Source of the DNA: a virus
Virus record (IMG/VR): IMGVR_UViG_3300025102_000242
Coordinates: 1-26,332 of that record
Direction: 5' to 3' (one strand)
DNA: 26,332 nt
The translations under genes and the position numbers were made by a program. The notes under the pieces were generated by a model. The model did not search any database. It saw only the letters and a program-made list of their open reading frames with translations, and had not been told where the DNA came from. Below are positions 1 to 20,160 of the stretch, piece after piece (positions within the stretch are counted from its first letter, which is position 1; each line of letters starts with the position of its first letter).

Positions 1-288
1 AGTGTAGTCAGACAATATACAAAGGCATCTGAAAAATCAAACAGGGTGCATCCAACACAGAAACCGATTGATCTTATAAATTGGTCAATTAATCGTTTTA
101 ATCAAAACGCAAATTTAATAGGAGATTTTTTTTTAGGTAGCGGATCAACAATGGTTGCAGCACATCAACTAAAACGCAAATGCTACGGAATGGAACTTGA
201 CCCTAAATATTGTCAAGTCATAATAGACAGGATGCAAAAACTTGATCCAAATATTAAGGTTAAAATCAATGGCAAAAAATATCACTAA
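1..288 (+). CDS. DNA methyltransferase, C-terminal part (5' end outside window)
   Basis: The reading frame is open from the first base to a TAA at 286-288, so only about 95 C-terminal residues are present. HPTQKP (residues 17-22) and then FLGSGST followed by MVAA match motif X and motif I (SAM-binding) of the beta-class N6-adenine/N4-cytosine methyltransferases. In that class the catalytic DPPY motif comes earlier, so it should lie upstream of the window. YGMELDPKYC is the usual segment after motif I. The enzyme would methylate phage DNA, commonly to evade restriction or mark replicated DNA. Its recognition site cannot be read from this fragment. It lies just upstream of the terminase genes. 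Family is confident; specificity and base are not. Confidence 0.88.
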   Translation, partial: SVVRQYTKASEKSNRVHPTQKPIDLINWSINRFNQNANLIGDFFLGSGSTMVAAHQLKRKCYGMELDPKYCQVIIDRMQKLDPNIKVKINGKKYH

Positions 289-293
289 TTTTG
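286..293 (+). promoter_or_regulatory. -7 promoter box for small terminase (leaderless type)
   Basis: TAATTTTG matches the Bacteroidota -7 element TAnnTTTG. Its first three bases are the TAA stop of the methyltransferase. The final G is followed by four bases and then the ATG at 298, so the transcript would start at or next to the start codon. I see no TTTG at about 18 bp upstream. Confidence 0.55.
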
Positions 294-297
294 TAAA

Positions 298-657
298 ATG
301 AAACAAAATGCAACGGCTATAAAAAAGAGAGCAATGATCGAGGCATTGGAAAAAACCCTCGGGGTAGTTACCACTGCCGCAAAGATGGTTGGTATTGATA
401 GAGTTACCCATTATCGTTGGATGGATGCCGATAAGGAATATCGTGAAAATGTTGATGATGTTCAAAATGTTGTTTTGGATTTTGCTGAATCCGCTCTCCA
501 TAAAATGGTTGAAAATCATAATCCGGCCGCAACTCTTTTTCTTTTAAAAACTAAAGGCAAAAAGCGTGGTTATATTGAAAGACAAGAAATAGAACATTCA
601 AGCAATGTTGAAACAGATGTAACTTTTGAAGTCCACAAGAGAAAAAAAGATTCTTAA
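298..657 (+). CDS. terS: Small terminase subunit (TerS)
   Basis: This 119-residue protein precedes and overlaps the large terminase gene. The N-terminal ~60 residues read as a helix-turn-helix (VTTAAKMVGIDRVTHYRWMD, about residues 24-43), the DNA-recognition domain of small terminases. A helical middle (oligomerisation) and a short charged C-terminal tail follow. It should bind the packaging start site and regulate TerL. The start is the first ATG, four bases after a TAnnTTTG box. Position and size support the call more than family-specific motifs do; a generic HTH regulator is the alternative. Confidence 0.75.
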   Translation: MKQNATAIKKRAMIEALEKTLGVVTTAAKMVGIDRVTHYRWMDADKEYRENVDDVQNVVLDFAESALHKMVENHNPAATLFLLKTKGKKRGYIERQEIEHSSNVETDVTFEVHKRKKDS

Positions 658-1804
658 AACGAACATTCAATTTGAGCAACTACTTAATTGCAAAAGTCGC
701 TTTGCTATATTACAAGGCGGGACTCGTAGCGGGAAAACTTATGCCGTTTGTCAATATTTGATTTATCTATTAAGAACATCAAAGAAGCCATTGACAATTT
801 CCATAATTAGAAAAACCCTCCCGGCCCTCAAAGGATCGGTGCAAAGGGATTTTATTTCTTTATTGGAGGAAACTGGAATGTATTATGCCGGAATTCATAA
901 TAAGGCCGAAAACACTTTTAGATACAATAATCACCTTGTTGAATTATTGTCAGTTGATGAGCCACAAAAAATCCGAGGCCGAAAAAGAAATATTGCTTTT
1001 TTAAATGAGGCTAATGAATTAACCCAAGAGGATTATCGTCAAATCAATATGCGATGTACTGATAAAATGATTTTGGATTTTAATCCATCTGAAGTAACGC
1101 ATTGGATTTATGATGAGGTAATCCCCAGACATGATGCCGAAACTTGGATAACAACTTACAAAGATAATTTGTTTTTGTCCGATGATTTGGTTTATGAAAT
1201 CGAGAGAATGAAAGATCGTGATCCAGATTATTGGCGTGTTTATGGAATGGGTCAAAAGGCTTTTTATTCAAATAGACAAATATTTCTAAATTGGAATTTT
1301 ATTGAAAAGTCCGAGTTCCCAGAATTTGACAATCCGGTGATTGGTATTGACTTCGGATTTTCAGTTGATCCAACCGCGATCTGTTTATTACAAAAGTTTA
1401 ATGAAAAGATTTACATTCAAGAATTGTGTTACAAAACAGGAATGACAAATCAAGATATTGCAGATTTTCTCAAGGCTCGGGGTCATGATGACACACTTTG
1501 TTATTATGATTCAGCAGAGCCAAAGTCAGGCGAGGAATTGCGACGACAAGGAATAATTTGTAAACCGGCAATCAAAGGAGCCGGATCAATCAATGCCGGA
1601 ATATCACTTTTAAAAGAATACGATATTTTTGTTGACAAGGATTCTAAAAATATTTTTAAAGAATTTCAATCTTATTATTGGCAACAATTAAAAGATGGAA
1701 CGATCATAAATAAGCCACAAGATAAAAATAATCACATGATGGATTCGATACGTTATAGTGTTTATTCTCATTATTCAAAGCGTTCGGATTTCTTTGTAAT
1801 TTAA
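626..1804 (+). CDS. terL: Large terminase subunit (TerL), ATPase-nuclease
   Basis: The 392-residue packaging motor resembles the PBSX/Terminase_3 type. Walker A is GGTRSGKT (31-38). Walker B is NIAFLNE (122-128), with the catalytic Glu followed by AN. Motif III-like DFNPS is at 151-155. The C-terminal RNase H-fold nuclease shows acidic residues at D242 (IDFGFS), D295 (YYDSAEP) and D373 (MMDSIRY). The start is TTG at 626: this frame has a TAA stop at 620-622 and no ATG before the Walker A. The gene overlaps terS by 32 bases, which suggests translational coupling. All key residues look intact. Confidence 0.95.
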   Translation: MKSTREKKILKTNIQFEQLLNCKSRFAILQGGTRSGKTYAVCQYLIYLLRTSKKPLTISIIRKTLPALKGSVQRDFISLLEETGMYYAGIHNKAENTFRYNNHLVELLSVDEPQKIRGRKRNIAFLNEANELTQEDYRQINMRCTDKMILDFNPSEVTHWIYDEVIPRHDAETWITTYKDNLFLSDDLVYEIERMKDRDPDYWRVYGMGQKAFYSNRQIFLNWNFIEKSEFPEFDNPVIGIDFGFSVDPTAICLLQKFNEKIYIQELCYKTGMTNQDIADFLKARGHDDTLCYYDSAEPKSGEELRRQGIICKPAIKGAGSINAGISLLKEYDIFVDKDSKNIFKEFQSYYWQQLKDGTIINKPQDKNNHMMDSIRYSVYSHYSKRSDFFVI

Positions 1805-1808
1805 TTAT

Positions 1809-1816
1809 TACTTTTG
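1809..1816 (+). promoter_or_regulatory. -7 promoter box upstream of portal gene
   Basis: TACTTTTG fits TAnnTTTG and begins four bases after the TerL stop codon. The ATG at 1839 is 23 bases past the final G, giving a short AT-rich leader. There is no correctly spaced -33 TTTG. Confidence 0.45.
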
Positions 1817-1838
1817 TATATAAATTTTATTAAATTTC

Positions 1839-4097
1839 ATGGCTTCACTTTTAGATCGACTGCAAAGGGTTTTTAAATCATCTCAAAATACAAATATTGA
1901 TTATAATAAAGCGATTTATAATTATTTAGGTGATTCGATTGTTTGGAATCCCGAGAATGATGATACATACATAAATAAAGGTTATCGATACAATCCAACA
2001 ATTTATTCGATTGTTAACTTAATATCAAAGACCGCTCAAACAATCCCTTTTCAGATTTACGAGATCAAAAGCGAAAATGATTTAAAAAGATATAAATCCC
2101 TAACATCAAGTGATTTCTCAACTTCAGCATTGTTCAAGGCTGAAAGAATCCAAAAAAATGCTTTGGTTGAATTGTCCGATACTGAATTGCATGAATTGTT
2201 AGAAAGACCAAATCCATCGCAATCTTATATTTCATGGATTCAAGAAATTATCGCTTACGGTAAACTAACAGGGAATAGATACATTTATGGTATTGGCCCG
2301 GAAACAGGGACCGACAAATCCAAGCTTAAAGAATTATACGTTTTACCATCTCAAGTCATGGAAATAAATTCTGGAGGTATTTTTGATCCGGTGAAATCTT
2401 ACACTCTTGAATACAACGGAACGGTCAGAATTGATGCAAACGATGTTTGTCACATAAAAGATTTTAATCCTTATTATGATGGAACGGGATCACACTTGTA
2501 TGGAATGTCACCTTTAAAGGCCGGACTTCGAGCAATGGACACAAATAATGAGGCGGTCACAACCGGAGTAAAATATTTACAAAATCAAACCGCAAGGGGG
2601 GTATTGATGTCAGACGAGGGGGATTTAACAGAAACCCAAGCAAAGGAATTGAAAAGAAAATTTAAAGACACATATCAAGGATCAAACAACGCCGGTGATG
2701 TTATTATCACGCCAAAAAAATTATCTTGGGTAAACTTTGGACTAAATGCATCGGATCTTTCATTGATTGAACAATACAATGCATCTATAAAAGACATTTG
2801 TAATATTTACAATGTTCCGGTGCAACTTTTAAATAATACCGATTCAAGCACTTACAATAATATGAAAGAGGCAAAAAAGGCTTTATATCAAAATGCCGTT
2901 ATGCCTGAACTTGTAAAAATTAGGGAGGAACTAAACAGATGGCTCACTCCAAGATTCGGAGAAAAACTTTATATTGATTTTGACTTTACATCGATTCCAG
3001 AATTGCAAGAGGAAATGGAAAAGGTGGTTGGACAAATGTCCCAAGCTTGGTGGATCACTCCAAATGAAAAAAGGGCGGCGATGTCATACGGTATTGAAGA
3101 AGATTCAAAACTTGATGATTATTATGTCCCGGCGAATCTCTTGCCATTGTCAGTCGAGGAAATGGATGTTGAGCCGAAAAATATTGATATCGATTATAAT
3201 GAACTTTTAAAGGCTCAAGTTCCCGGAATGCCAAATACATTTACAACAATTCAAGAGGCCGTAAATAGAGCCAGAGAATTGGGGGGCGATGGATATCATT
3301 CTCATGTTCATAATGGAGGAACTGTTTATATGCCATTTGAATCTCACGAGGAATTTGAGGGAATCATGAGAGGTGACTATTCACAAATTGAATCATCTTA
3401 TGATGAGGATTCTTATGATTATGATGAGGATGATGACAAAATTATCCACAAACAAAAGCTGACTGGTAAAGTCAAAAAAGCTTTGGAAAATAAAGTTGAG
3501 GATCACAATGAAAAATACGGCGATAACCCGGCAAAAAGAGCAACGTATTCAATGTTAGCGAAATCATTTGTCCGGGGAGTTGGTGCATATCGAACCAACC
3601 CATCAAGTGTGAGGCCATCAGTTTCAAGCGAAGAACAATGGGCATTTGCAAGAGTGAATGGTTTGTTGTATGCTTTGGCCAATGGTAAGTTCAAACGAAA
3701 GCCATACGATACCGACCTACTTCCAGAGGAACACCCATTGTCATCAAAAAAAAACTATACAATTAAAGAATCTTATGATGATTATCCCCAAGCGGCAACA
3801 AACAACGCAAGAAGGATGATCGAATGGCGTGAGAAATACGGCCGGGATGTTGTTAAAGGAGGAACCGAGGTCGGTTGGAAAAGAGCATCGATGTTGGCTA
3901 AAAGAGAAAAACTTTCTATTGATGTGATTTCACGCATGGCTCAATTTAACAGACATAGAGAAAACGCAAAGATTGATCCCAAGTTTAAGGATGAACCATG
4001 GAAAGATCGTGGATTCGTTGCTTGGAATCTTTGGGGTGGAACTCAAGGGGTTGATTGGGCGATCCAAAAGATGAAAAAAATCAGAGGTGAAGAATGA
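1839..4097 (+). CDS. Portal protein, HK97 type, with long C-terminal extension
   Basis: The protein has 752 residues, against about 400-450 for a usual HK97-family portal. Residues 1 to ~435 look like a portal: Pro- and Trp-rich start, a PNPSQSYISWIQEIIAYGKL segment, YNVPVQLL, and AMSYGIEED near the end of the core. It would form the dodecameric DNA channel at the head vertex. Beyond this, residues ~465-505 carry a His-containing YHSHVHNGGTVYMPF segment. Residues ~538-637 include RGVGAYRTNPSSVRP and QWAFARVN. Residues ~650-752 include WREKYGRDVVKGGTEVGW and PWKDRGFVAWNLWGG. I recall the last two segments from other phage structural proteins, but their function is unknown. The gene overlaps the next one by four bases (ATGA). 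Confidence 0.88.
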   Translation: MASLLDRLQRVFKSSQNTNIDYNKAIYNYLGDSIVWNPENDDTYINKGYRYNPTIYSIVNLISKTAQTIPFQIYEIKSENDLKRYKSLTSSDFSTSALFKAERIQKNALVELSDTELHELLERPNPSQSYISWIQEIIAYGKLTGNRYIYGIGPETGTDKSKLKELYVLPSQVMEINSGGIFDPVKSYTLEYNGTVRIDANDVCHIKDFNPYYDGTGSHLYGMSPLKAGLRAMDTNNEAVTTGVKYLQNQTARGVLMSDEGDLTETQAKELKRKFKDTYQGSNNAGDVIITPKKLSWVNFGLNASDLSLIEQYNASIKDICNIYNVPVQLLNNTDSSTYNNMKEAKKALYQNAVMPELVKIREELNRWLTPRFGEKLYIDFDFTSIPELQEEMEKVVGQMSQAWWITPNEKRAAMSYGIEEDSKLDDYYVPANLLPLSVEEMDVEPKNIDIDYNELLKAQVPGMPNTFTTIQEAVNRARELGGDGYHSHVHNGGTVYMPFESHEEFEGIMRGDYSQIESSYDEDSYDYDEDDDKIIHKQKLTGKVKKALENKVEDHNEKYGDNPAKRATYSMLAKSFVRGVGAYRTNPSSVRPSVSSEEQWAFARVNGLLYALANGKFKRKPYDTDLLPEEHPLSSKKNYTIKESYDDYPQAATNNARRMIEWREKYGRDVVKGGTEVGWKRASMLAKREKLSIDVISRMAQFNRHRENAKIDPKFKDEPWKDRGFVAWNLWGGTQGVDWAIQKMKKIRGEE

Positions 4098-4885
4098 CTT
4101 TGATGAAAGCCACTAAAGAGGAAACGGCTTGGCAAGAAGATTTTGAAAAAGAACTTGATCGGAGTGAAGAAAAAGAAATCGTTCCGGTAAGGAGATATTT
4201 ATCCCGGGAATACAATCAGGCAACCGGGGAATATTTAAAAAATCAAAACACAAATAATTGGTCGAATCTTTTTAAAGAACATGATATCGCCGCTATCTAT
4301 GCAATCCTCTACATGAATATCGGATCAAATTTTTCTAAACTCTATAAAAAAACATATCAAGGAAAATTCCCAAATGAATTTAACACTAATGGATACAATA
4401 ATATTTGGAGGGAAAAGTTTCGTGAGGCCGGTCTTAAAATATCGCAATTCAAAGGCAAGGGAGTTTCTTTGGCATCGCAAAAAGAGATTACAAGAATTAT
4501 ATCCAAACTTCATAAAAGTCCAGAGTTTCAAGCATTAAATGAAAGAGAGGCCGGGAGGATATTAAAATCACAATTTAAAAAATTAGCTGACTACAAAGCA
4601 AAAAGAATTGTAAGAACCGAGGCAACAAATGCGGCCAATTTTGCAACACTTCAAACGGCCAATGATATGTATGGAATCAACAACATTCAAAAAATTTGGT
4701 TGGCTAGTTTTATTCGAACAAGGGACACCCATGCGGCGGCAAATGGCCAAAAGGTAAATGGCGATGAAAAATTTAATGTTGGAGGGGAATATCTTACTCA
4801 TCCCGGATCTGGAGTTTTAGCTGAAAACAATATCAATTGCCGATGTACGATTTTAATCGAGCCAAAACCTATTCCAGAAATTTAA
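4094..4885 (+). CDS. Minor head protein, Mu gpF / SPP1 gp7-like
   Basis: This 263-residue protein has the C-terminal signature of the Phage_Mu_F family. RTEATNAAN is followed by RTRDTHAAANGQ, and the protein ends with a HPGSG...NCRC segment in which the paired cysteines and His are typical. Family members are minor head proteins that attach at or near the portal, and some act in DNA ejection. The N-terminal half is helical and charged and not diagnostic. The ATG overlaps the portal stop as ATGA, so translation is probably coupled. MTLMKAT allows an alternative start three codons later. Confidence 0.85.
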   Translation: MTLMKATKEETAWQEDFEKELDRSEEKEIVPVRRYLSREYNQATGEYLKNQNTNNWSNLFKEHDIAAIYAILYMNIGSNFSKLYKKTYQGKFPNEFNTNGYNNIWREKFREAGLKISQFKGKGVSLASQKEITRIISKLHKSPEFQALNEREAGRILKSQFKKLADYKAKRIVRTEATNAANFATLQTANDMYGINNIQKIWLASFIRTRDTHAAANGQKVNGDEKFNVGGEYLTHPGSGVLAENNINCRCTILIEPKPIPEI

Positions 4886-4893
4886 TATCTTTG
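4886..4893 (+). promoter_or_regulatory. -7 promoter box for prohead protease (leaderless type)
   Basis: TATCTTTG is a perfect TAnnTTTG. It directly follows the TAA of the previous gene (4883-4885) and sits four bases before the ATG at 4898, the same spacing as at 286-298. No -33 partner is visible. Confidence 0.6.
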
Positions 4894-4897
4894 CAAT

Positions 4898-5584
4898 ATG
4901 AACACAATACTTTATAAATCAACATTTCTCGGCGAGGTTATTGATGCCGATGAAAAAATGGGTATTGTCAAAGGTTACGGCTCAATTTTTGGGAACGTAG
5001 ATTCCGATGGCGATATCATAAACAAGGGAGCATATAAAAAGACAATCCAAGAAAACGGATCAAGGGTCAAATATCTGTATCAACATGATATGGATAAACC
5101 AATTGGGAAAATGATCAATCTTGAAGAAGATGACAAAGGACTCGCATTTGAGGCTCAAGTTCCAAAAACACGACTTGGAATGGATGTGATTGAACTTATG
5201 AAAGCCGGTGTAATAACCGAAAATTCCGTTGGCATCTTGCCAATTCAAAAAGGAATGAATGGTCAATACCGGGAATTAAATGAGGTCAAATTGTTTGAAG
5301 TGTCAGCCGTTACATTGGCGGCAAATGATCAAGCGATGATTGTTGATGTAAAAGGCAACAATGATCCGGAAAAGATTTTCAAGCGTTTTGACAATATGGC
5401 GAAACTAATTCGTAAGGGGGACATCTCTGATGAATTAGGGTACGCTTTAGAAGCTGAAATCTACAAATTGAAATCATTATACATCAATGCCACTTTGCCG
5501 ACTATGGAAGTCACAGAGCCGACAGTTGTAAAAACTGATGACAATGAGATTTATAAATATTTGTATAACCGTTTAAATAAATAA
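4898..5584 (+). CDS. Prohead maturation protease, peptidase S78 family
   Basis: At 228 residues this is the expected size for an HK97-type head maturation protease. VKGYGSIFGNVDSDGD (24-39) is the typical N-terminal strand and loop. The presumed catalytic His is H63 in YQHD and the catalytic Ser is S110 in ENSVG. LFEVSAVTLAAND (132-144) is the usual closing motif of the domain. It should assemble inside the prohead, cut the N-terminal scaffold domain of the capsid protein, and then degrade itself. A tail of about 80 residues after the core is less conserved. The next gene begins two bases after the stop. Confidence 0.92.
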   Translation: MNTILYKSTFLGEVIDADEKMGIVKGYGSIFGNVDSDGDIINKGAYKKTIQENGSRVKYLYQHDMDKPIGKMINLEEDDKGLAFEAQVPKTRLGMDVIELMKAGVITENSVGILPIQKGMNGQYRELNEVKLFEVSAVTLAANDQAMIVDVKGNNDPEKIFKRFDNMAKLIRKGDISDELGYALEAEIYKLKSLYINATLPTMEVTEPTVVKTDDNEIYKYLYNRLNK

Positions 5585-5586
5585 TA

Positions 5587-6801
5587 ATGAACGAAGAAAT
5601 TAAAAATCAATTGGATCAAATTGGTGATCTTGTTGATTCTAAAATCGAAAAAGCGTTCAATTCGGCTCAAGACAATGCAAAAGGAGAAGTTGAGGAATCA
5701 CTTAAAAGTGAAATCTCAAATCTTTCAAATGAATTTGTTTCGAAAAATAACGAATTGAACAAAAGAATGGATGAAATGGAAGTAAACGCCAAAAAAACTT
5801 TATCTGGCGTAAACTCAAAATCATTCAAAGGCTCTCTTGATGCCGCTTTCAAAGATGGCGTTATTGATGGAATTGTAAAAGGTAACACAAACGCCGCATC
5901 TTTTGAGGTAAAAGCTGACATGACAATGGCGGCTGACTTCACCGGTGTTGTTGCTGATGAAACAGTAGTGGCTCAATTTAAATTTGACCCAAGTCGTAGC
6001 GTACATATTAGAAGTTTGATTCCTCAAGGATCAACAAGCGCACAAACAATCCGTTTCCCTAAAGAATCTGGATATTCTGATAATGCGGCGGCTACTGCTC
6101 AAGGTTCAACTCTTGGAAACTCTGATTTTGATATCACCGCAACAAGCGTGAATTTGGAAAAAATTGGAACTTATATGAGGTTAACTGAAGAAATGTTGGC
6201 GGATACCCCCCAACTTTCATCTTACCTTTCAGCAAGAGTACCAAGTAAAGTTTTATCCGTAGAGGATAATGAAATTATCTCTGGTGATGGATCATCTCCA
6301 AACCTTGATGGGCTTTTAACTGATGGAACTGCATTTACCACATCAAGTGGCGGATTGTTTTATCAGTCAGTAGAATCTGCAAACGAATATGATGTTCTTG
6401 TTGCGGCATTGAATCAATTGGCATTGGTAAACTATCAAGCTGACACGATTCTTTTGAACCCAACAGATCTTCATAAAATCGTATTGTTGAAATCAACTGC
6501 AAATGAGTATTTAAGACAACAAATTTACACCGGTATTCAACCAACAATCATGGGAATTCCTGTGACTGTTAATACTGCAATGCCTAATGGTAAATTCCTT
6601 GTTGGAAATCTTGCTCAAGCAACTCAACTGTGGATTAGAGAAAACTTGGCAATTAGCTTTAGCCGGGAAGATTCTACAAACTTCAGAGATGGCTTTGTAA
6701 CTGTAAAGGCTCAAGAAAGAGTAGCACTTACAAATTACTTGCCAAATGCAATCGTACAAGGTACGTTCTCAACTGCTAAAACGGCACTTGAAACATCTTA
6801 A
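5587..6801 (+). CDS. Major capsid protein, HK97 fold
   Basis: The protein has 404 residues. Residues 1 to ~90 are charged and helical, with coiled-coil character (delta/scaffold domain). A protease site is expected near residues 80-110, where the sequence turns from charged helices to an Ala/Thr/Val-rich region. The core contains FTGVVADETVVAQF, IRSLIPQG, TIRFPKE, KIGTYMRLTEEMLADTP (E-loop and spine helix area) and the LLNPTDLHKIVLLK segment of the P domain, all typical of HK97 capsids. It follows its protease directly, and a rho-independent terminator follows it, as expected for the most highly expressed gene. Confidence 0.93.
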   Translation: MNEEIKNQLDQIGDLVDSKIEKAFNSAQDNAKGEVEESLKSEISNLSNEFVSKNNELNKRMDEMEVNAKKTLSGVNSKSFKGSLDAAFKDGVIDGIVKGNTNAASFEVKADMTMAADFTGVVADETVVAQFKFDPSRSVHIRSLIPQGSTSAQTIRFPKESGYSDNAAATAQGSTLGNSDFDITATSVNLEKIGTYMRLTEEMLADTPQLSSYLSARVPSKVLSVEDNEIISGDGSSPNLDGLLTDGTAFTTSSGGLFYQSVESANEYDVLVAALNQLALVNYQADTILLNPTDLHKIVLLKSTANEYLRQQIYTGIQPTIMGIPVTVNTAMPNGKFLVGNLAQATQLWIRENLAISFSREDSTNFRDGFVTVKAQERVALTNYLPNAIVQGTFSTAKTALETS

Positions 6802-6823
6802 TATTACGATTAGTTTAGTATTT

Positions 6824-6854
6824 AAAAGGGTGATCATAAGGTTACCCTTTTTTT
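6824..6854 (+). terminator. Rho-independent terminator after capsid gene
   Basis: AAAAGGGT (6824-6831) pairs with ACCCTTTT (6844-6851). The inner pairs G6832-T6843 and A6833-T6842 extend the stem, and T6848-6854 form the U-tract. It closes the head operon. Confidence 0.8.
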
Positions 6855-6903
6855 ATGCTATTATTTTTAAATGAAAAAAAATTAAAAAAAAGTAAAAAAA
6901 GTT

Positions 6904-6933: not shown

Positions 6934-6963
6934 AAATATAATTCAAAACAAAAAACAAAGATT

Positions 6964-7308: not shown

Positions 7309-7320
7309 ATAAAAACAACC

Positions 7321-7341: not shown

Positions 7342-7361
7342 GTATAACCAAAAATTAAATT

Positions 7362-7992: not shown

Positions 7993-8022
7993 TTTTTTGT
8001 TTGATTTAGTTAATTGGAAATT

Positions 8023-8051
8023 TCCCCCATAATTTTGGGGGATTTTTTTTT
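8023..8051 (+). terminator. Rho-independent terminator
   Basis: TCCCCCA (8023-8029) pairs with TGGGGGA (8036-8042) around a six-base loop, followed by nine T (8043-8051). It ends the small-gene chain and insulates the nuclease gene that follows. Confidence 0.85.
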
Positions 8052-8053
8052 AT

Positions 8054-8061
8054 TAACTTTA
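8054..8061 (+). promoter_or_regulatory. Possible -7 box for nuclease gene
   Basis: TAACTTTA is one base off TAnnTTTG and again ends so that four bases separate it from the ATG at 8066. A TTTG at 8034-8037, inside the terminator stem, is 16 bases upstream, slightly closer than usual. A weak or regulated promoter is plausible. Confidence 0.35.
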
Positions 8062-8065
8062 TTCC

Positions 8066-8431
8066 ATGGATTCTAATGCAATTGGCTATTTGTGTGAGTA
8101 TAAAATAGCAACGGCATTGATGGAACATGGACACTATGTTTCAATGCCATTAAATAATTCAAGTACATACGATATGATTGCTGAAATAAATAACAACCTT
8201 TATAAAATACAAGTGAAAGGCACTAAAAAAAAACCTTCTAAAAATAAAAACGGGATCCATGTAAATATTTCTAGGCATAGAACCTATTCGAAATCCGAGA
8301 TTGATTTCATAGCAATTTGGGTGGATTATTTTAAAGGATTTTTCTTTTTAAGAAATCAAAATCAAAATACAGTTGTTTTACATCCCGAGGGTAAGTATAA
8401 AAATTATTTTAATAAATTTGTAATTGGGTAA
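8066..8431 (+). CDS. PD-(D/E)XK-like nuclease, 121 residues
   Basis: The order of motifs fits a minimal PD-(D/E)XK endonuclease: an N-terminal helix with E11 (YLCEYKIATALMEHG), then D36 (STYDMI), then Q49-V50-K51 (KIQVKG), which takes the E/D-X-K position with Gln in place of the acid. Similar small proteins include group I intron-associated and free-standing homing nucleases, and Holliday-junction-resolvase-like proteins. The gene is bracketed by terminators at 8023 and 8481, so it is transcribed separately from the head genes around it. It could be a homing-type insertion, a recombination helper or an anti-host nuclease. Fold call moderate; role open. Confidence 0.6.
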   Translation: MDSNAIGYLCEYKIATALMEHGHYVSMPLNNSSTYDMIAEINNNLYKIQVKGTKKKPSKNKNGIHVNISRHRTYSKSEIDFIAIWVDYFKGFFFLRNQNQNTVVLHPEGKYKNYFNKFVIG

Positions 8432-8480
8432 GGTTTTGGTTTGTCCTTATCATAATAATTGTTTTATTGTTTTGTAAATG

Positions 8481-8513
8481 TTGCGCTACTCAAATGGGTG
8501 GCGCAATTTTTTT
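8481..8513 (+). terminator. Rho-independent terminator before connector operon
   Basis: TTGCGC (8481-8486) pairs with GCGCAA (8501-8506). T8487-G8500 wobbles, ACTC (8488-8491) pairs with GGGT (8496-8499), and the loop is AAAT. The eleven-pair stem is followed by T8507-8513. Confidence 0.88.
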
Positions 8514-8520
8514 ATCTTTG
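8513..8520 (+). promoter_or_regulatory. -7 promoter box for connector/tail-completion operon
   Basis: TATCTTTG starts at the last T of the preceding terminator. The ATG at 8537 is 17 bases past the final G, after an A-rich leader. Terminator and promoter are fused end to end. No -33 TTTG at the normal distance. Confidence 0.6.
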
Positions 8521-8536: not shown

Positions 8537-8731
8537 ATGAAAATTAAAATTTTAAAAGATGTATATACTTCAAAAGGTTGGCGATACGTTGGAGAGGTTC
8601 ATGATTTGGATCAAAAAACTTCCAAGCACTATATCGAAAAAGGTATCGGAATTGAGCAAAAAGAGGAAAAAGCCGCAAAACAAACAAAGGAAAACAAAAG
8701 CGTAAAAAAAAGAACTACTAAAAAAAAGTAA
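8537..8731 (+). CDS. Small Lys-rich structural-region protein
   Basis: 64 residues from the ATG at 8537. An in-frame ATG at 8459 would place translation through the terminator and promoter, so I reject it. The N-terminal ~40 residues (KILKDVYTSKGWRYVGEVHDL) form a compact module often seen in small proteins encoded between capsid and gp6-like connector genes. The last ~25 residues are almost all Lys, Glu and Thr, ending KKRTTKKK. It may bind DNA or the capsid interior, or be a head-decoration helper; no firm function. The connector gene starts three bases after its stop. Confidence 0.7.
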   Translation: MKIKILKDVYTSKGWRYVGEVHDLDQKTSKHYIEKGIGIEQKEEKAAKQTKENKSVKKRTTKKK

Positions 8732-9250: not shown

Positions 9251-9579
9251 TGGATTCGGGCAAATTAAACAATAGGATCATAATCAAACGACAATCAAAA
9301 TCCGATGATGGCTTTGGTGGAACAACATCAACCCTTTCGACAATTGCAACAATTTGGGCAAGAGTAACCGAGTTGAAAGGTGAGATTCAAAAAACCGATT
9401 TCGTTTCTGGTAGATATGTTGAGGTTGAAATAATTGTTAGAACTAAAACCGCAGATCAATATATTTTAGCAAACGATGTGATTCAAATCCAAGGTCAAAC
9501 GGGCGATTATAAAATCAATAATATTTATGAGAGCCAAGAGGATCAATATGTAAAAATTTCAGCGACTAAATTTGCGTAA
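9250..9579 (+). CDS. Head-tail joining (head closure) protein
   Basis: 109 residues. The pattern LNNRIIIKRQS...DGFGG near the start, IWARVTELKG in the middle (residues ~37-46), and VRTKTAD with a final KISATKF is that of the Phage_H_T_join / SPP1 gp16-like family. The protein would plug the connector and provide the surface for tail attachment. It overlaps both neighbours by one base (TAATG), so expression of this set is likely coupled at translation. Confidence 0.88.
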   Translation: MDSGKLNNRIIIKRQSKSDDGFGGTTSTLSTIATIWARVTELKGEIQKTDFVSGRYVEVEIIVRTKTADQYILANDVIQIQGQTGDYKINNIYESQEDQYVKISATKFA

Positions 9580-12350: not shown

Positions 12351-12358
12351 TAAATTTG
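12351..12358 (+). promoter_or_regulatory. -7 promoter box for fibre gene
   Basis: TAAATTTG fits TAnnTTTG. The ATG at 12372 is 14 bases past the G, after an A-rich leader. The spacing and leader are nearly the same as before 13644. No -33 partner seen. Confidence 0.55.
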
Positions 12359-12371: not shown

Positions 12372-13625
12372 ATGGGTAATACACTAACCGGTCAAAGGAT
12401 AAAAGACACCTATCTCGGATTCATAAAAACAACAGATAATGCCGAGGTTGATGCAACGGGGAAAGAGTTAACCGATGGTAATGGAAATGATCTCGATATT
12501 TTTATTAATACGGGTGGTCAATTAGGTTTTAGTTCAACACCAGATTTCACCGTTGACGCCGGAGGAAATACAGATGCTTTCCGTTTACCCAATGGATCGA
12601 CTGCTCAACAACCAACCGGTCAAGCCGGAATAATTAGATATAATACAACGGATTCAAAACTTGAGTATTTTGACACCGGATATAAATTTATCGCATCCGA
12701 AAATTATGTTAATACTCAAATCACAAATTTAATTGATTCCGCTCCCGGGACACTTGATACATTAAATGAGATTGCGGCGGCTTTAAATGATGACCCGGAT
12801 TTTAATACTACAATTACCAATTTAATAAACGGAAAACAAGCGACAATAACCGGAGCGGCAACAACTATCACATCAAGTGATTTGACCGTATCAAGAGCAT
12901 TAATTTCAAACTCATCGGGAAAGGTGGCCGTTTCATCTGTTACAGATACTGAACTTGGATATTTATCGGGAGTGACTTCCGCCATTCAAACTCAATTCAA
13001 TAATATTACCGACAATAATACAACTTACTCCGTAAGTGCGGTTGATTCTGGTGATAATGCAATAATAAGATTGACCGGATCGGATTCAACTACCGATGAC
13101 GTTACTCTTGTTGCCGGATCAAATATTACATTGACACCAAGCGGTGATAATATTACAGTTGCATCAACTGCCACAGGGTCAGGGGGATCTACAAATGTAG
13201 TCACAACAACCTCAACAGGAGATGGATCAACAACTGCTTTTACTTTGCCAAACACGATTGCAAGTGAAAACAACGTTCAGATTTATGTCAATGGAGTTTA
13301 TCAATCAAAATCTAATTATAGTACATCATCCAATACGGTGACTTTCTCAACTGCTCCTCCAAATGGATCAAGCGTTGAATTTATGCATTTTGTTGCACTT
13401 AATGGAACTCCTAATATTGAGATTGATAGTTTTGATGGCGATGGATCAACCACGACATTCACATTGTCAACTGAACCGGCAAATAAAAATAATTTGCAAA
13501 TTTACATTGATGGGGTTTATCAAGCAAAAGCAAATTATTCAGTAACAACAACAACATTAACATTTACAACCGCCCCGGCAACGGGAACAGGAAATATCGA
13601 GGTAACTCATTTAAAAATATCTTAA
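12372..13625 (+). CDS. Tail fibre-like protein with duplicated C-terminal domain
   Basis: 417 residues, Ser/Thr/Asn/Gly-rich. APGTLDTLNEIAAALNDDPD followed by a FNTTITNLINGKQ segment (residues ~117-155) is a classic helical registration element of phage tail fibres. An N-terminal head (about 1-100) and a middle beta region follow the pattern of trimeric fibres. Two similar ~60-residue domains end the protein. They start at GDGSTTAFTL (about 283) and GDGSTTTFTL (about 356), and both contain QIY-x(2)-GVYQ and TFxTAP. They are presumably receptor-binding or spacer units. The stop codon overlaps the next promoter box. Confidence 0.8.
   Translation: MGNTLTGQRIKDTYLGFIKTTDNAEVDATGKELTDGNGNDLDIFINTGGQLGFSSTPDFTVDAGGNTDAFRLPNGSTAQQPTGQAGIIRYNTTDSKLEYFDTGYKFIASENYVNTQITNLIDSAPGTLDTLNEIAAALNDDPDFNTTITNLINGKQATITGAATTITSSDLTVSRALISNSSGKVAVSSVTDTELGYLSGVTSAIQTQFNNITDNNTTYSVSAVDSGDNAIIRLTGSDSTTDDVTLVAGSNITLTPSGDNITVASTATGSGGSTNVVTTTSTGDGSTTAFTLPNTIASENNVQIYVNGVYQSKSNYSTSSNTVTFSTAPPNGSSVEFMHFVALNGTPNIEIDSFDGDGSTTTFTLSTEPANKNNLQIYIDGVYQAKANYSVTTTTLTFTTAPATGTGNIEVTHLKIS
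13215..13612 (+). repeat. Tandem duplication of a fibre domain
   Basis: Two units about 217 bases apart, starting near 13218 and 13435, share the GATGGATCAAC core and encode similar domains (GDGSTT, IYVNGVYQ/IYIDGVYQ, TFSTAPP/TFTTAPA). They have diverged well beyond wobble positions, so the duplication is not recent. Confidence 0.7.
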
Positions 13626-13630
13626 CTTTG
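13623..13630 (+). promoter_or_regulatory. -7 promoter box overlapping the fibre stop codon
   Basis: TAACTTTG fits TAnnTTTG, and its first three bases are the TAA stop of the upstream gene. The ATG at 13644 lies 14 bases past the G, after a leader made only of A and T. Confidence 0.55.
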
Positions 13631-13643
13631 TAAAAAATAAAAA

Positions 13644-14003
13644 ATGGCATTAACAAAAGTAACAAGCGGAGTTTTAGGGGATGAATATACATCAAGCAGT
13701 TCCTTAATATCCGCCGCATCCATAACCGTTGACACATCTTCTGCTGATGTATTCACATTAACAGCTGGACATTCAGCAACTTTAAATTTTACAAATGTTA
13801 TTATAGGGGATTTAAAAACATTAGTTGTTACTGGAGGGGGCAGTTCTTACACTTTAACTTTAGGGACTGTAAATGGTTCATCAGCAACTTATAATCTTAT
13901 AAGTGGTACTTATGATGACACCAGTTCAACAAAAAACTTCATTCAAATAAAATTTATTTCCACAACAGAGGCGTGGTACACAATCTCACAAATATCAAGT
14001 TAA
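13644..14003 (+). CDS. Small beta-rich tail fibre accessory protein
   Basis: 119 residues, rich in Ser, Thr and Gly. It starts with ALTKVTSGVLGDEYTSSSSL, a segment typical of the attachment end of phage fibre proteins. The rest resembles short beta strands (ADVFTLTAGHSATLNFTNV, then TLVVTGGGSSYTLTLG) ending with WYTISQ. It has its own promoter and sits in the fibre module, two bases before the next gene. It may be a small fibre or a fibre-tip subunit. It lies within the GATC-free stretch. Confidence 0.6.
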   Translation: MALTKVTSGVLGDEYTSSSSLISAASITVDTSSADVFTLTAGHSATLNFTNVIIGDLKTLVVTGGGSSYTLTLGTVNGSSATYNLISGTYDDTSSTKNFIQIKFISTTEAWYTISQISS

Positions 14004-14004
14004 T

Positions 14005-14544: not shown

Positions 14545-14546
14545 AT

Positions 14547-16985
14547 ATGGCTTTAGGCAAAAGATTAATTAATACAGGTGGCGTTGCGGTTTGTAATACT
14601 GAAACTACTGATATTTTTGGCGATTCAAGTGGTGTAGCATTATATTCTTTGGACTATGATTCTTCGGAAGCAAGTGGCAACTTTAATGGTGAGCCTTACA
14701 ATGGAGTCAATTTCGGAGTTTCGGGTAAAATAAATACAGGTGCGAGATTTAATGGTACAGACCAATTTATAGAATTAGGTACTAATATTTTTAAATACAC
14801 AGATGCAACCATTTCAGCTTGGATTAATCCAAATGTTTCAAATACAAGTGTTAAAACAATATATGGTAATACAAGCTATGTTAATGGTCAACAATTTCAC
14901 GGAATTATAATAAGCGTAAGGAATGATGGTAGTTCTGATAAAATATTTGTTCAGCACTACCCATCCAGCACAGCTGTTTATTCAACAGGTTCAATATCCT
15001 TAAATACTTTTACTCACATTGCTGTTTCTTATACAGGTTCACAAACAAAAATATATATAAATGGTTCGTTAGATTCTACACATTCAGCTACATTAAGTTA
15101 TAGTGCAAGTCAAACGCTTACAGCTTCGTTAGGTGCTTATATTTTACAAGACTATACTACCAATACTACTTATGATGAATTTAGCGGTACTATCGACCAA
15201 GTAAGGGTATTTTCAAAAACGTTAAATCCAACAGAAGTTGGCACCCTATACGCAGAAACCGCTTGTGTACATACTGCAACTACAACTGATAGTGAGTACC
15301 CTGTTACAAATGCTGCATATTACAAATTAAATAATTCAGCAGAGGATTCAAAAGGTACGGCAGATGGTACTGAAGCAGGGGGTGTTGAGTACAGGTTCGG
15401 ACGCTTTGGTCAAGCTGCGGTGTTTAATGGGAGTAGTAGTAAACTTGATTTACCTTCCATACTACCTGCAAACAGTACAGCCGATTCAAGTTTTACTTGC
15501 TGGTTTAATACAAGTGATACATCTGGAAGTCAACAGACAATAGTAAATGCTTGGAATGGTAGTACAACCGCTAATAATGGTGGATGGGCATTGTTTAAAG
15601 ATGCAGGAAATGTTTTGCGATTAGGTCATAATTATTTAACAAGTGGTAGTGCAGGTACCGATGGAAGTACAAATGTAGGGGATGGAAATTGGCACTTTGT
15701 AGCGGTTGTTTTTGATTATAGTGCTGGAACTTTAAAACTATTTTTAGACGGCAATAGCACACCTGAAGTGCAATTGACATCGCTCACACCAAATACACCA
15801 AATATTTTTTCAGGGAGTAATTTATCATTAGGTTATCAAAATCCAGGTGGGCCTTTTAGATATTGGAATGGAAAAATAGACCAAGTACGCATATTTTCAA
15901 CCGCACTTTCGAGTAGTCAAATTACCCAACTTTACAACGAAAAACCTGAAACAGATACATCTAACTTTAAGACTGTATTGTATGGGGGGAATGGTGGAAC
16001 TCAATATATTTCAAATGTAGGGTTTGATTTAGACGTTAATGATGGTGGGGATGGTGGCTTGGTTTGGATTAAGGGAAGAACAGTAGGCGCATCTCATAGT
16101 TTACAAGATACAGTAAATGGTGAAGGTCAGTCAAAAAACTTGTATCCTGACAACACAGGGTATTTAGGGCAATTTGGTCAATTCGGTTTTTTATCAACCT
16201 TTGAAGCAAATGGTTTTTTTGTAAATGCAGGTTCAGGTAATCATACAAACGCAAATAATAAAGACTATGTAGCTTGGACTTGGAAAGGCGGTGGCGATGC
16301 AGTCAATATTGGAGTAAATTCAATTACAGGCTCTACACCTTCTATTGCATCAGATGTTAGTGCTAATACAGAAGCAGGGTTTAGTATTGTAAATTGGTCA
16401 GGCAGTATATCTTCAAGTGCTGAAACAGTTGGACACGGACTATCTTCTGCACCTGAACTCGTAATATTAAAAAATACAGATGTATCTGATAATTGGTATG
16501 TTTTCGTAAACGGAGTTACATCTACTTCACAAAATTTAAAATTAAACACAGACGATGATGTTGCAAGTTCTTCTACGATGTGGGGTGCAGGGATGACTTC
16601 TACTGTTGCAGGCATAAGACCTGGCAGTTTTGTTTCGAGCACATCTAATAAGGTAATAATGTACTGTTGGCATTCAGTTGCAAAATATAGTTCTATTGGG
16701 ACATATACCGGGAATGGTAATTCAACAGGTACTACTGTTACTTTAGATTTTGCACCAAGTTTTGTTATGATTAAAGGCACTGACCAGACATCTAATTGGA
16801 TAATTATTGACAACAAAAGAGACACTACAAATCCAAATTCAGGAAGATTAGATGCAGATAGCAGTGGTCAGGAATATACTGGTGAAACTATAATGGATTT
16901 AAATTCTGATGGTTTTCAATTAAAAACATCAAGTGCATCAAAGAACGGTCTTGATAAAGTTTTTATTTATATGGCTTTTAAATAA
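14547..16985 (+). CDS. Large LamG/concanavalin-like receptor-binding fibre protein
   Basis: 812 residues. Two LamG/ConA-like lectin domains are visible. The first is at about residues 30-235 (GARFNGTDQFIELG, ATISAWINPN, GTIDQVRVFSKTLNPTEV). The second is at about 250-475 (AVFNGSSSKLDLP, SSFTCWFNTSD, GKIDQVRIFSTALSSSQI). Both end with the IDQVR-x-F segment typical of these jelly-roll lectins. The last ~330 residues form a different beta-rich region (GGLVWIKGR near 507, DYVAWTWKGGG, and ending VFIYMAFK) like C-terminal regions of marine phage adhesins. It should bind host surface sugars. No GATC occurs in the gene. Confidence 0.82.
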   Translation: MALGKRLINTGGVAVCNTETTDIFGDSSGVALYSLDYDSSEASGNFNGEPYNGVNFGVSGKINTGARFNGTDQFIELGTNIFKYTDATISAWINPNVSNTSVKTIYGNTSYVNGQQFHGIIISVRNDGSSDKIFVQHYPSSTAVYSTGSISLNTFTHIAVSYTGSQTKIYINGSLDSTHSATLSYSASQTLTASLGAYILQDYTTNTTYDEFSGTIDQVRVFSKTLNPTEVGTLYAETACVHTATTTDSEYPVTNAAYYKLNNSAEDSKGTADGTEAGGVEYRFGRFGQAAVFNGSSSKLDLPSILPANSTADSSFTCWFNTSDTSGSQQTIVNAWNGSTTANNGGWALFKDAGNVLRLGHNYLTSGSAGTDGSTNVGDGNWHFVAVVFDYSAGTLKLFLDGNSTPEVQLTSLTPNTPNIFSGSNLSLGYQNPGGPFRYWNGKIDQVRIFSTALSSSQITQLYNEKPETDTSNFKTVLYGGNGGTQYISNVGFDLDVNDGGDGGLVWIKGRTVGASHSLQDTVNGEGQSKNLYPDNTGYLGQFGQFGFLSTFEANGFFVNAGSGNHTNANNKDYVAWTWKGGGDAVNIGVNSITGSTPSIASDVSANTEAGFSIVNWSGSISSSAETVGHGLSSAPELVILKNTDVSDNWYVFVNGVTSTSQNLKLNTDDDVASSSTMWGAGMTSTVAGIRPGSFVSSTSNKVIMYCWHSVAKYSSIGTYTGNGNSTGTTVTLDFAPSFVMIKGTDQTSNWIIIDNKRDTTNPNSGRLDADSSGQEYTGETIMDLNSDGFQLKTSSASKNGLDKVFIYMAFK

Positions 16986-17035
16986 TGGATGATTTGAAGA
17001 TATCTGAAAAAATTAAAATCACTATATTTGTATAA
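16985..17035 (+). pseudogene. 16-codon open frame resembling the start of the holin-like gene
   Basis: ATG shares a base with the preceding TAA (TAATG), and the frame ends at TAA 17033-17035. Its first six residues, MDDLKI, equal those of the holin-like gene at 10390, with three synonymous base differences. The sequence then diverges. It could be a decayed remnant of a holin gene, a real micro-protein, or chance. The next promoter box lies within it. Confidence 0.35.
17023..17030 (+). promoter_or_regulatory. -7 promoter box for tail tube gene
   Basis: TATATTTG is a perfect TAnnTTTG. The ATG at 17047 is 17 bases past the G, with an A/T-only leader. A TTTG at 16993-16996 is 26 bases upstream, too far for a normal -33 element. 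Confidence 0.6.
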
Positions 17036-17046
17036 AATTTAAATAA

Positions 17047-17457
17047 ATGGCAACAACAGGAGTTTTTTCAGGAACTAATTTAATTCTAAAGATAGAGGGA
17101 GCAACACTCGGACACACGACAAGTTGTTCAATGACTTTTAATGCTGATTTACCAGAGGCAACAACAAAGGATTCAAGTGGTTTTCAAGAAGTGATTGCCG
17201 GTGTTAAATCTGGCGAGATTTCTTTTGATGGACTTGTTGCCTATGATGACACCGCAAACGCAATTGAACTCGCTGATTATTTAATCGCCGGAACTCAACT
17301 TACTTGCATTTTTGGAACTGCCGTAAGTGGCGATGAAGTTTTTACAGTCGAGGGATTTCTCTCAAGTGTGGAAATGAGCGCAGAGATGGAATCACCCGTT
17401 AGTTATAGCGGCTCAATTACAACAACCGGATCGATTGTTAAGTCAACCAACTCATAA
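17047..17457 (+). CDS. Major tail (tube) protein
   Basis: 136 residues. The start (TTGVFSGTNLILKIEGATLGH), then EATTKDSSGFQEVIAGVKSG and a beta-rich C-terminus (VSYSGSITTTGSIVK), match the TP901-1-like major tail protein family. The W/F-x-E-x-I-x-G-x-K turn is recognisable as the FQEVIAGVKSG segment. It polymerises into the tail tube. Its own promoter fits the need for high expression, and the tail assembly chaperone gene follows 19 bases later, the conserved order. Confidence 0.88.
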   Translation: MATTGVFSGTNLILKIEGATLGHTTSCSMTFNADLPEATTKDSSGFQEVIAGVKSGEISFDGLVAYDDTANAIELADYLIAGTQLTCIFGTAVSGDEVFTVEGFLSSVEMSAEMESPVSYSGSITTTGSIVKSTNS

Positions 17458-17476
17458 GAGTTAAATTCTTAAAATA

Positions 17477-17860
17477 ATGGCAAACAAAAAGAGGGGTTAC
17501 TATTCCTTAAAAATAGGCGGAAAAAATCGTACATTACATTTTTCCATGAACTTTTGGGCAAACTTCACCGACCTGTTAGGCATATCGCTTGACAAGTTGG
17601 GAGAGGTGTTTGAAAACGGTATTTCAATTAAAAGCATTCGATCATTAATCTATTCCGGTCTTTTGGCATACGATCAAGAGGAGGGAAATAAAATTGATTA
17701 TAATGAATTTAAAGTCGGTGCATGGCTTGAGGATATTGATGCCGAAGAACTTACAAAGATTGTCAATGCAATGACTGAATCCAAGATTTTAGGTTCAAGT
17801 CTAAATATGGGCATTGAACGAAATGCTGAACCCGAGGGAAAGCAGAGGCCGACCCCCTAA
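17477..17860 (+). CDS. Tail assembly chaperone, short form (lambda gpG-like)
   Basis: 127 residues, mostly helical (FSMNFWANFTDLLGISLDKL, IKSIRSLIYSGLLAYDQEEG, AEELTKIVNAMTES), like phage tail assembly chaperones. It lies between the tube and tape measure genes. The protein normally ends with RPTP at the TAA 17858-17860. A slippery site 15 bases before this stop lets part of the ribosomes shift to the -1 frame and make a longer form. The short form should outnumber the long form and, by analogy with lambda, bind the tape measure and tube proteins during tail assembly. Confidence 0.85.
   Translation: MANKKRGYYSLKIGGKNRTLHFSMNFWANFTDLLGISLDKLGEVFENGISIKSIRSLIYSGLLAYDQEEGNKIDYNEFKVGAWLEDIDAEELTKIVNAMTESKILGSSLNMGIERNAEPEGKQRPTP
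17836..17842 (+). promoter_or_regulatory. GGGAAAG slippery site for -1 ribosomal frameshift
   Basis: In the zero frame the heptamer reads G GGA AAG, the X XXY YYZ form, and is the same heptamer used by lambda G/GT. It lies in the 31-base window where both frames are open, between the TGA of the -1 frame (17827-17829) and the zero-frame stop (17858-17860). A short C-rich/G-rich pairing downstream (17854-17856 with 17863-17865) is a weak candidate stimulator. Confidence 0.85.
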
Positions 17861-18177
17861 ATTGGGATAAATTACTTGATTACTATATCGGGCAAGTCGG
17901 CATAAATCCCAATGACTTTTGGAGGCTTACTTGGTCTGAAAATCAACGCTTGGGTGAATCACATACAATCAAATTAAATATCCAATGGGAACAAACCAGA
18001 TATTTGGCCACAATGGTTCACAATGTGAATTGTCAAAAGAAAAGCCAAATGATTAAGCCGGAGAAACTATTTCCATTGCCACAGGATAAGTATTTAAAGC
18101 CGAGTAAACCAAGATCAACGCCAGAGGGATTTAAAACATTTTTAAACAAAGTAAGATCAATGGGGGTTAAGATTTAA
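17842..18177 (+). CDS. Tail assembly chaperone, frameshift extension (gpT-like part)
   Basis: Read only after the -1 shift, as the last 111 residues of a predicted 233-residue fusion. The sequence LNWDKLLDYYIGQVGINPND followed by FWRLTWSENQRLGES is typical of the second part of chaperones (Trp, then P-x-x-F/W-x-x-LT). This frame lacks a sensible start of its own: the only candidates inside it are a TTG at 17950 and an internal ATG, both after the conserved part. That supports the fusion over a separate gene. The extension in lambda GT recruits the tube protein. The final codons lie inside a terminator stem. Confidence 0.85.
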   Translation, partial: AEADPLNWDKLLDYYIGQVGINPNDFWRLTWSENQRLGESHTIKLNIQWEQTRYLATMVHNVNCQKKSQMIKPEKLFPLPQDKYLKPSKPRSTPEGFKTFLNKVRSMGVKI

Positions 18178-18191
18178 CCCTCTTTTTTTTT
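18162..18191 (+). terminator. Rho-independent terminator overlapping the chaperone stop codon
   Basis: GGGTTAA (18164-18170) pairs with TTAACCC (18174-18180) around a GAT loop, and two outer pairs (G63-T81, G62-C82) extend it. T18183-18191 is the U-tract. The TAA stop is part of the 3' arm. Confidence 0.88.
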
Positions 18192-18192
18192 G

Positions 18193-18200
18193 TATTTTTG
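18193..18200 (+). promoter_or_regulatory. -7 promoter box for tape measure (leaderless type)
   Basis: TATTTTTG fits TAnnTTTG. It starts two bases after the terminator U-tract and ends four bases before the ATG at 18205, the same arrangement as before terS and the protease gene. No -33 TTTG. Confidence 0.6.
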
Positions 18201-18204
18201 TAAT

Positions 18205-20160
18205 ATGGTAAATCAAGAACATTTAAGGGTATTAATTTCGGCAGATGTTAAAAAATTAAATGCCGGATTAAATAAAGCATCTAATCAACTGTCAAATTTT
18301 GGCAGTCGATTAAATACAATAGGGAAAAATCTATCTTTAAAATTAACTGCTCCAATATTAGCCGCTGGAACTATGGCCGTTAAATCCGCAAGTGATTTCC
18401 AAAGATTAAGAACAACATTGGAGGTTTTAACAGGTACTGCCGACAAGGGTCGAAAAGTTTTTGAAAAGCTTGTTAAGTTTTCTGCAAGAACACCATTCCA
18501 ATTACCCGATCTTGTCAATGTAAATAATATGTTGATGGGATTTGGATTGAATGCCGATCAAGCTTTTGAATCATTAAAATTGCTTGGTGATATTGCCGCC
18601 GTTTCTGGAGGTAGCCTTGAAAACATTGCAAGGGCATTTGGACAAAGTGCCGGTGCCGGTAGAGTAATGACCCAAGATATAAATCAATTTATAAATAATG
18701 CGGTTCCATTATATGGAATGCTTTCTGATGTTACGGGTAAAAATGTTGGTCAATTAAGAGAAATGGCCTCTCAAGGTCAAATAACTTTTGAGTTATTAAT
18801 AAAAGCTTTTAGAAATGCAACGGCAGAGGGAGGCAAATTTAACAATGGGATGGAACGATTATCTCAAACTTTTGCCGGTCAATTATCTACATTTAGAGAT
18901 CAATTAAATATTACTTTTGCCAAGTTTGGTGAAATTATATTACCCTTATTAACTCGAATGCTAAAAAAATTATCGAGTTTAGCTGATACGCTTAAAAATC
19001 TATCTCCAGAAACAAGAAAATTGACTTTAATTTTTGGAGGATTACTTGCCTCATTAGGGCCGTTATCAATTTTAATTGGTTCAATGTCTAAAGGTTTAGG
19101 AATTATGTTGAAAGGATTTAAATCTCTTTTAACGGTTGTCCCATTAATTACAAGATCATTTATCTCATTAGGAGTCGCCATTGCGGCAAATCCAATTGGT
19201 TTATTAGTTACTGCCGTAACGGCTTTAGGTGTGGCATTAATTGAGGTTTTGCATAGGATGAATCCTTTAGTTGGTAGGATGACTACATTCTTAAATGTCA
19301 TAAAGTCAGCCGGTAATCCGGCAAAGTTTTTCGCTTTACAAGCCAAAACCATTGCTAAAAATGAACACAATGCCACAAAACAACAGATTAAGCTAAATAA
19401 AGAAATTAAAGATTTCAAAAAGAGTGTTGATCAAACAATACCAGAGATTGATGTTTTTGCGGATGCATTTAAAGGAATGGGTAATGAGGCCGACAACGTA
19501 AGACAAAAAGTTGAGCCGGTCAATAAAATAATGAAAACATTTGAATTTGATGGCCAAAAAGCAGTTTTTGGATTAAAGGGCATTGGTAAAAAAGTAAAAG
19601 TGGCAGAGGATGCTTTTAAAGATTTGAAAAAAACATCCACAGAGGTTTCTAAAAAAATATTTGTTGATTTTAGCGGAATAGCATTAGCGGGGGCTCAAGC
19701 TTTTGGAACTGCTTTAGTTGAGGGAGGCAATGTTTTCAAAGCAATAGGCAAAATCATTTTACAATCTTTAGGAGATATTTTAATTCAAATGGGAACTGCC
19801 GCAGTTTTAGCCTCTAAATTAGCTACCACATTCGCAATTCCAATTGTCGGAGTTGCCGCCGGTCTTGCGGCTATTGCCGCCGGTGCAGTTTTAAAAGGTT
19901 TAGCCGGTAAAATGCAAAATGAGGGGCCGAGAGCATTTGCCGATGGAGGAATTGTTTCCGGCCCTACAATGGGGTTAATTGGAGAATATACAGGGGCAAG
20001 ATCAAATCCCGAGGTGGTCGCTCCACTTGATCGACTTAATTCAATGATAAATAATGGAGGATCAAACAATGTAAATGTTACGGGCGAATTCAGATTAAAA
20101 GGTCAAGATTTGGTCGTTGCATTACAAAGAGCAAATAAACAAAGAAATAGAATTTTATAA
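18205..20160 (+). CDS. Tail tape measure protein
   Basis: 651 residues from the ATG at 18205; a TTG five codons earlier lies inside the terminator and promoter and is rejected. The N-terminal ~200 residues after position 50 match the tape-measure N-terminal domain (FQRLRTTLEVLTGTADKGRK, FSARTPFQLPDL, SGGSLENIARAFGQ, FINNAVPLYGML). Hydrophobic stretches at about 273-300, 312-350 and 542-572 are typical membrane-active parts. The C-terminus has ADGGIVSGPTMGLIGEYTGA and the EVVAPLDRL segment common in this family. At about 1.5 angstrom per residue, the tail would be roughly 100 nm. No peptidase domain is seen. Confidence 0.93.
   Translation: MVNQEHLRVLISADVKKLNAGLNKASNQLSNFGSRLNTIGKNLSLKLTAPILAAGTMAVKSASDFQRLRTTLEVLTGTADKGRKVFEKLVKFSARTPFQLPDLVNVNNMLMGFGLNADQAFESLKLLGDIAAVSGGSLENIARAFGQSAGAGRVMTQDINQFINNAVPLYGMLSDVTGKNVGQLREMASQGQITFELLIKAFRNATAEGGKFNNGMERLSQTFAGQLSTFRDQLNITFAKFGEIILPLLTRMLKKLSSLADTLKNLSPETRKLTLIFGGLLASLGPLSILIGSMSKGLGIMLKGFKSLLTVVPLITRSFISLGVAIAANPIGLLVTAVTALGVALIEVLHRMNPLVGRMTTFLNVIKSAGNPAKFFALQAKTIAKNEHNATKQQIKLNKEIKDFKKSVDQTIPEIDVFADAFKGMGNEADNVRQKVEPVNKIMKTFEFDGQKAVFGLKGIGKKVKVAEDAFKDLKKTSTEVSKKIFVDFSGIALAGAQAFGTALVEGGNVFKAIGKIILQSLGDILIQMGTAAVLASKLATTFAIPIVGVAAGLAAIAAGAVLKGLAGKMQNEGPRAFADGGIVSGPTMGLIGEYTGARSNPEVVAPLDRLNSMINNGGSNNVNVTGEFRLKGQDLVVALQRANKQRNRIL

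Follow-up and report, generated by a model that had tools for sequence, protein, structure and literature searches.

Three genes in the viral DNA analysed here, those for the small terminase subunit (terS), the head-maturation protease and the tape measure protein (TMP), start exactly four bases after a TAnnTTTG promoter box, and the same placement recurs at the orthologous starts of related viral loci. From this placement we infer that the boxes very probably give rise to leaderless mRNAs for terS, for the protease together with MCP, and for TMP, with both the transcription start and leaderless translation predicted from sequence.

The DNA is a virus record of 26,332 bases, referred to below as the window. 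Its tightly packed genes follow the siphovirus-type head-to-tail order of terS, terL, portal, head morphogenesis, HK97-type protease and MCP, connectors, major tail protein and TMP, with MCP starting at 5587, directly after the protease. Expression of the three genes is presumed to be late from gene function only. At its left end lies the C-terminal part (46–288) of a DNA methyltransferase-like ORF, which ends in the TAA of the terS promoter box; the record is apparently a fragment. The promoter boxes of the window agree with the Bacteroidota consensus TAnnTTTG. Among isolates, the relatives of its terL infect Bacteroides, Phocaeicola and Parabacteroides, and a Flavobacterium phage gives a short DNA match; a search of INPHARED for an isolate close to the window phage found none.

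Placement of the box in the window and its relatives

The boxes and genes concerned are as follows, each box with the number of related loci whose nearest box is exactly 4 bases 5' of the orthologous ATG.

286–293, + strand: −7 box TAATTTTG, 4 bases 5' of the terS ATG (298); 17 of 19 loci
298–657, + strand: terS, predicted leaderless (PHROG terminase small subunit)
4886–4893, + strand: −7 box TATCTTTG, 4 bases 5' of the protease ATG (4898); 51 of 54 loci
4898–5584, + strand: head-maturation protease (PHROG), predicted leaderless
18193–18200, + strand: −7 box TATTTTTG, 4 bases 5' of the TMP ATG (18205); 6 of 6 loci
18205–20160, + strand: TMP (PHROG), predicted leaderless

The preliminary description of this DNA had placed boxes at these three positions, and all three are exact. 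The complete pattern, TANNTTTGNNNNATG (TANNTTTGN4ATG), is matched at five sites of the window (expectation 0.76), namely at 286, 4886, 9567 and 18193 on the + strand and 22966 on the − strand. The highest count in 100 shuffles was 3, none reaching 5, which bears out the earlier statement that the fixed spacing is improbable by chance. The box alone is not enriched across the window (46 against 40.9 expected), so that the signal lies in the placement of the box. The − strand match is antisense within a gene, presumably a chance occurrence, and was rejected as a promoter. All three boxes fit the Bacteroidota sigma-ABfr −7 consensus TAHHTTTG, and the degenerate middle positions are kept across relatives. 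No conserved −33 TTTG element was evident by eye in the upstream alignments; in F. johnsoniae, too, the −33 element is not evident (PMC6847099).

The related loci, about 116 in number, were collected using terL, MCP and TMP. The protease exceptions have the box 13 or 17 bases from the ATG, never 5–12. When loci with flanks more than 60% identical are dropped, the spacing is retained in 25 of 27 protease and 11 of 13 terS loci. In the protease alignment the core box columns are conserved at 0.93–1.0 and columns −32 to −21 mostly at 0.3–0.7. Since the flanks beyond the box are unconserved and yet the four-base spacing is kept, we count this as preserved placement.

The assignment of the start codons supports these distances. 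At terS an in-frame stop lies 2–5 codons upstream, with no alternative start upstream, in all 20 rows of the alignment, and the protease has no alternative start between its ATG and the upstream in-frame stop. At TMP the single upstream in-frame TTG, 5 codons before the ATG, lies inside a T tract and 5' of the box. In 14 of the 54 protease loci there is a second in-frame ATG 3 codons downstream, which, like this TTG, counts against the reading. Comparison by codon position shows third positions to be the most variable directly after the protease ATG, a coding-type variation; the N-terminus of terS is highly variable across loci.

In the transcription start map of F. psychrophilum, TAnnTTTG occupies −12 to −5, counted from +1 (PMC9723704), and with four bases between box and ATG, as here, +1 is expected on the A of the ATG. 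Transcription should thus begin no more than about 1 nt from the start codon, the geometry being taken from Flavobacterium maps. The distance between box and start is 4 or 5 nt in F. johnsoniae (PMC6847099); promoters of the 5-nt kind would lose the A of the AUG at this spacing, which counts against the reading. On balance, the conserved spacing and the published geometry support leaderless starts for terS, the protease and TMP, as had been proposed.

Terminators, leadered boxes and two other readings

Several boxes are directly preceded by terminators, and others lie further from their start codons.

18162–18191, + strand: intrinsic terminator, hairpin GGGGGTTAA-GAT-TTAACCCTC plus T9, with one base between it and the TMP box; in 4 of 6 TMP loci
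8023–8051, + strand: hairpin and T tract of a terminator, immediately 5' of the nuclease box; in 17 of 17 loci (8015–8056 folds at −16.5 kcal/mol)
8054–8061, + strand: variant −7 box TAACTTTA, 4 bases 5' of the ATG (8066) of a small "nuclease" gene; spacing 3–7 in relatives
1809–1816, + strand: portal box, leadered, 22 bases; 14–24 in relatives
8513–8520, + strand: box TATCTTTG after a terminator, leadered, 16 bases to the ATG at 8537; 14–17 in relatives, once 23
12351–12358, + strand: leadered box, 13 bases, gene at 12372; 13–16 in relatives
13623–13630, + strand: leadered box, 13 bases, gene at 13644; 13–15 in relatives
17023–17030, + strand: major tail protein box, leadered, 16 bases; 16–23 in relatives
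9567–9574, + strand: box-like sequence before neck1, within the last part of the head-closure gene; rejected (coding sequence, unconserved)

As the terminator adjoins the TMP box, transcripts from upstream should mostly stop before TMP, leaving the leaderless RNA as its main source. The arrangement differs at the other two genes. No terminator was found between head morphogenesis and protease in 53 of 54 loci, or before terS in 15 of 20, and in the window neither gene is separated by one from the genes upstream. In the remaining 5 of 20 terS loci a terminator does precede the box, several of them by 1–5 bases. Without a terminator, leadered read-through may contribute at the protease and, in the window, at terS as well. 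One could go further and take the boxes to be real promoters whose leaderless RNA is minor, with the protein made mainly from leadered read-through of upstream transcripts, as the tight packing of the genes and the loci free of terminators would allow. We regard this as unlikely, because a terminator stands 1–5 bases before the box at the window TMP and at several terS loci, and because a constant spacing of 4 would not persist if the leaderless product were unimportant.

The joint of terminator and promoter is not limited to leaderless genes. At the leadered gene starting at 8537 a terminator with a strong hairpin runs straight into the box (8480–8520 in the window), and does so in 32 of 33 loci. 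The 60 bases upstream of the window TMP, comprising terminator and promoter, are nearly identical to those of one related locus (18145–18205 against 151–211 of L114), in which the TMP itself is only 35% identical. On sequence comparison it looks as if TMP genes had been swapped behind a shared terminator–promoter joint.

For the boxes at 12351, 13623, 17023 and 8513 the preliminary description had given leaders of 13–16 bases, and we obtain 13, 13, 16 and 16, respectively. Two further leadered boxes, that of the portal gene and one at 23800 (16 bases), did not figure in it. These leadered boxes bear on the idea that TAnnTTTG at a fixed distance is no promoter at all and acts as a translation-initiation signal in a leadered mRNA. 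Ribosome-binding signals typically keep a set distance from the ATG, and 96% of the protease loci have A at −3. We nevertheless consider this very improbable, since the same box stands 13–24 bases from other ATGs, fits the host −7 consensus including both degenerate positions, and occurs directly after terminators, where there would be no upstream transcript for it to act upon.

Two other sites had been credited with the four-base spacing. The box before the gene at 8066 is present, has the spacing of 4 in the window and appears to be a near-start promoter; its distance in relatives varies from 3 to 7 and is thus not fixed. The comparison supports a near-leaderless promoter here, a weaker case than terS, protease and TMP. 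In most relatives this box ends in A instead of G (TAACTTTA or TATCTTTA), a conserved variant of the −7 box. The gene, earlier named a nuclease, falls in PHROG 5018 (function unknown). The sequence at 9567, given as a box in the neck operon (ATG 9579), does exist, but it lies within coding sequence and is kept in 2 of 6 relatives, being broken or absent in most; a relative with a 99% identical protein at this site carries TAAATTTT in its place. We therefore do not retain it as a promoter.

Distribution of box-to-start spacings

Of the relatives' 1,628 called genes, 60 have a box at spacing 4, against a mean of 0.3 and a maximum of 2 for control scrambles. Spacings of 5–12 are at about background, and a second, broad class begins at 13. 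The 60 are mostly protease (33), terS (16) and TMP (4), and are not independent genes. Their start codons are ATG in 56 of 59 ATG/GTG/TTG cases, with one GTG and two TTG, in line with the nearly uniform AUG usage expected of leaderless mRNAs.

A second set was made up of ten phage isolates infecting Flavobacterium, Polaribacter, Nonlabens, Croceibacter, Riemerella, Cellulophaga and Bacteroides. Seven genes lie at spacing 4 and five at spacing 5, against 0.2–0.3 expected, with almost none at 6–13, and 11 of these 12 starts match the deposited annotation. In Flavobacterium phage 11b the annotated terS start (4858, gene 4858–5340) lies upstream of a terminator and box; the ATG at 4930, 4 bases after the box, is the likelier start on sequence grounds. 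Phage P12002L, too, has such a box, at terL (5260).

We also searched a sample of IMG/VR, irrespective of host phylum, for T tracts with a box after them and an ATG no more than 25 bases on. ORF starts number at least 14 at spacing 4, at least 4 at spacing 5, at least 1 over 6–12 and at least 29 over 13–25; with a scrambled box there were none at spacing 4 among the matches listed. The genes at spacing 4 or 5 include at least three TMPs, at least two terS and a tail protein, and one of the TMPs aligns with that of the window at 29–46% identity. Patterns lacking the T tract, which over IMG/VR hit mostly chance sites, gave no clear peak (AATTATCTTTG, two at 4 and two at 5; AAATAATTTTG, none). 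The only contig from a scan of genome contigs, related to the window (MCP 54% identical), sits within a genome labelled Candidatus Woesearchaeota archaeon and is probably a mis-binned phage contig.

The excess of the four-base spacing over shuffled sequence that the preliminary description had expected in this and related phages is thus strong in three data sets. That it reflects chance, or a short stretch simply inherited by close relatives, is scarcely credible: related loci and some near-identical contigs are indeed in the set, but the spacing survives removal of loci with similar flanks and the enrichment is seen again in unrelated isolates and in the collection-wide scan, which refutes the idea unless the sampling was biased to spacing 4.

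Taken more broadly, the distribution inclines us, by a modest degree, to the view that genes of Bacteroidota phages start in one of two modes, with the box 4–5 bases before the AUG (leaderless) or with a leader of at least about 9 nt, leaders of 1–8 nt being selected against. A compact module of terminator, promoter and start codon would then repeatedly place terS, protease and TMP in the leaderless mode.

Proposed mechanism and comparison with known systems

In the mechanism that we propose, the boxes at 286, 4886 and 18193 would act as host-type sigma-A (sigma-ABfr) −7 elements, from which RNA polymerase would begin the transcript with the start-codon A and so produce leaderless mRNAs for terS, protease and TMP, with MCP carried downstream of the protease in the same leaderless transcript. 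The host ribosome would have to initiate at a 5'-terminal AUG. Where terminator, promoter and start codon fall within about 45 bp, they would form a compact, insulated restart of transcription. Such a restart might set the output of genes needed in low amounts apart from that of the upstream operon, although as to purpose this is a guess.

Leaderless translation has been treated as rare in Bacteroidota, whose ribosomes choose start codons without a Shine–Dalgarno (SD) sequence. Phage genes that keep leaderless starts across diverged genomes would be natural test cases of how this choice is made, and the conserved spacing suggests that short leaders are harmful. It also gives a rule for locating true starts and promoters in Bacteroidota phages that are known from metagenomes only.

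The lambda cI mRNA is a leaderless phage message for a single repressor gene, made from a sigma-70 promoter. Our candidates resemble it in being phage mRNAs that would start at the AUG; they differ in belonging to packaging and structural genes and to Bacteroidota promoters. Leaderless initiation was first discovered in lambda (PMC3160421), and in E. coli kasugamycin spares leaderless mRNA (PMC5230787). A survey of TA-led genes shares the logic used here, that a promoter box about 10–12 bp before the start codon marks a leaderless gene; its target was TANNNT, not the Bacteroidota box TAnnTTTG, and by its criterion one of 37 Bacteroidetes/Chlorobi genomes contained leaderless genes (PMC3160421). 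Our search of the literature for mapped transcription starts of phages in Bacteroidota found none, and the host baseline is taken from literature values: leaderless mRNAs make up 5.5% of mRNAs in Flavobacterium psychrophilum (PMC9723704), and about 3.7% of 5' UTRs in Bacteroides thetaiotaomicron are shorter than 10 nt (PMC7366714). The leaderless mRNAs of Bacteroidota hosts are like those predicted here in the −7 element, the expected geometry of the transcription start and translation without SD. In the hosts, however, leaderless genes are a small minority, whereas in the phages the predicted ones recur at particular orthologous genes and form a sharp, separate spacing class. Leaderless mRNA is thus known, if uncommon, in Bacteroidota; its conservation at particular phage genes, together with the empty zone of short leaders, is new in that it appears undescribed in the literature searched.
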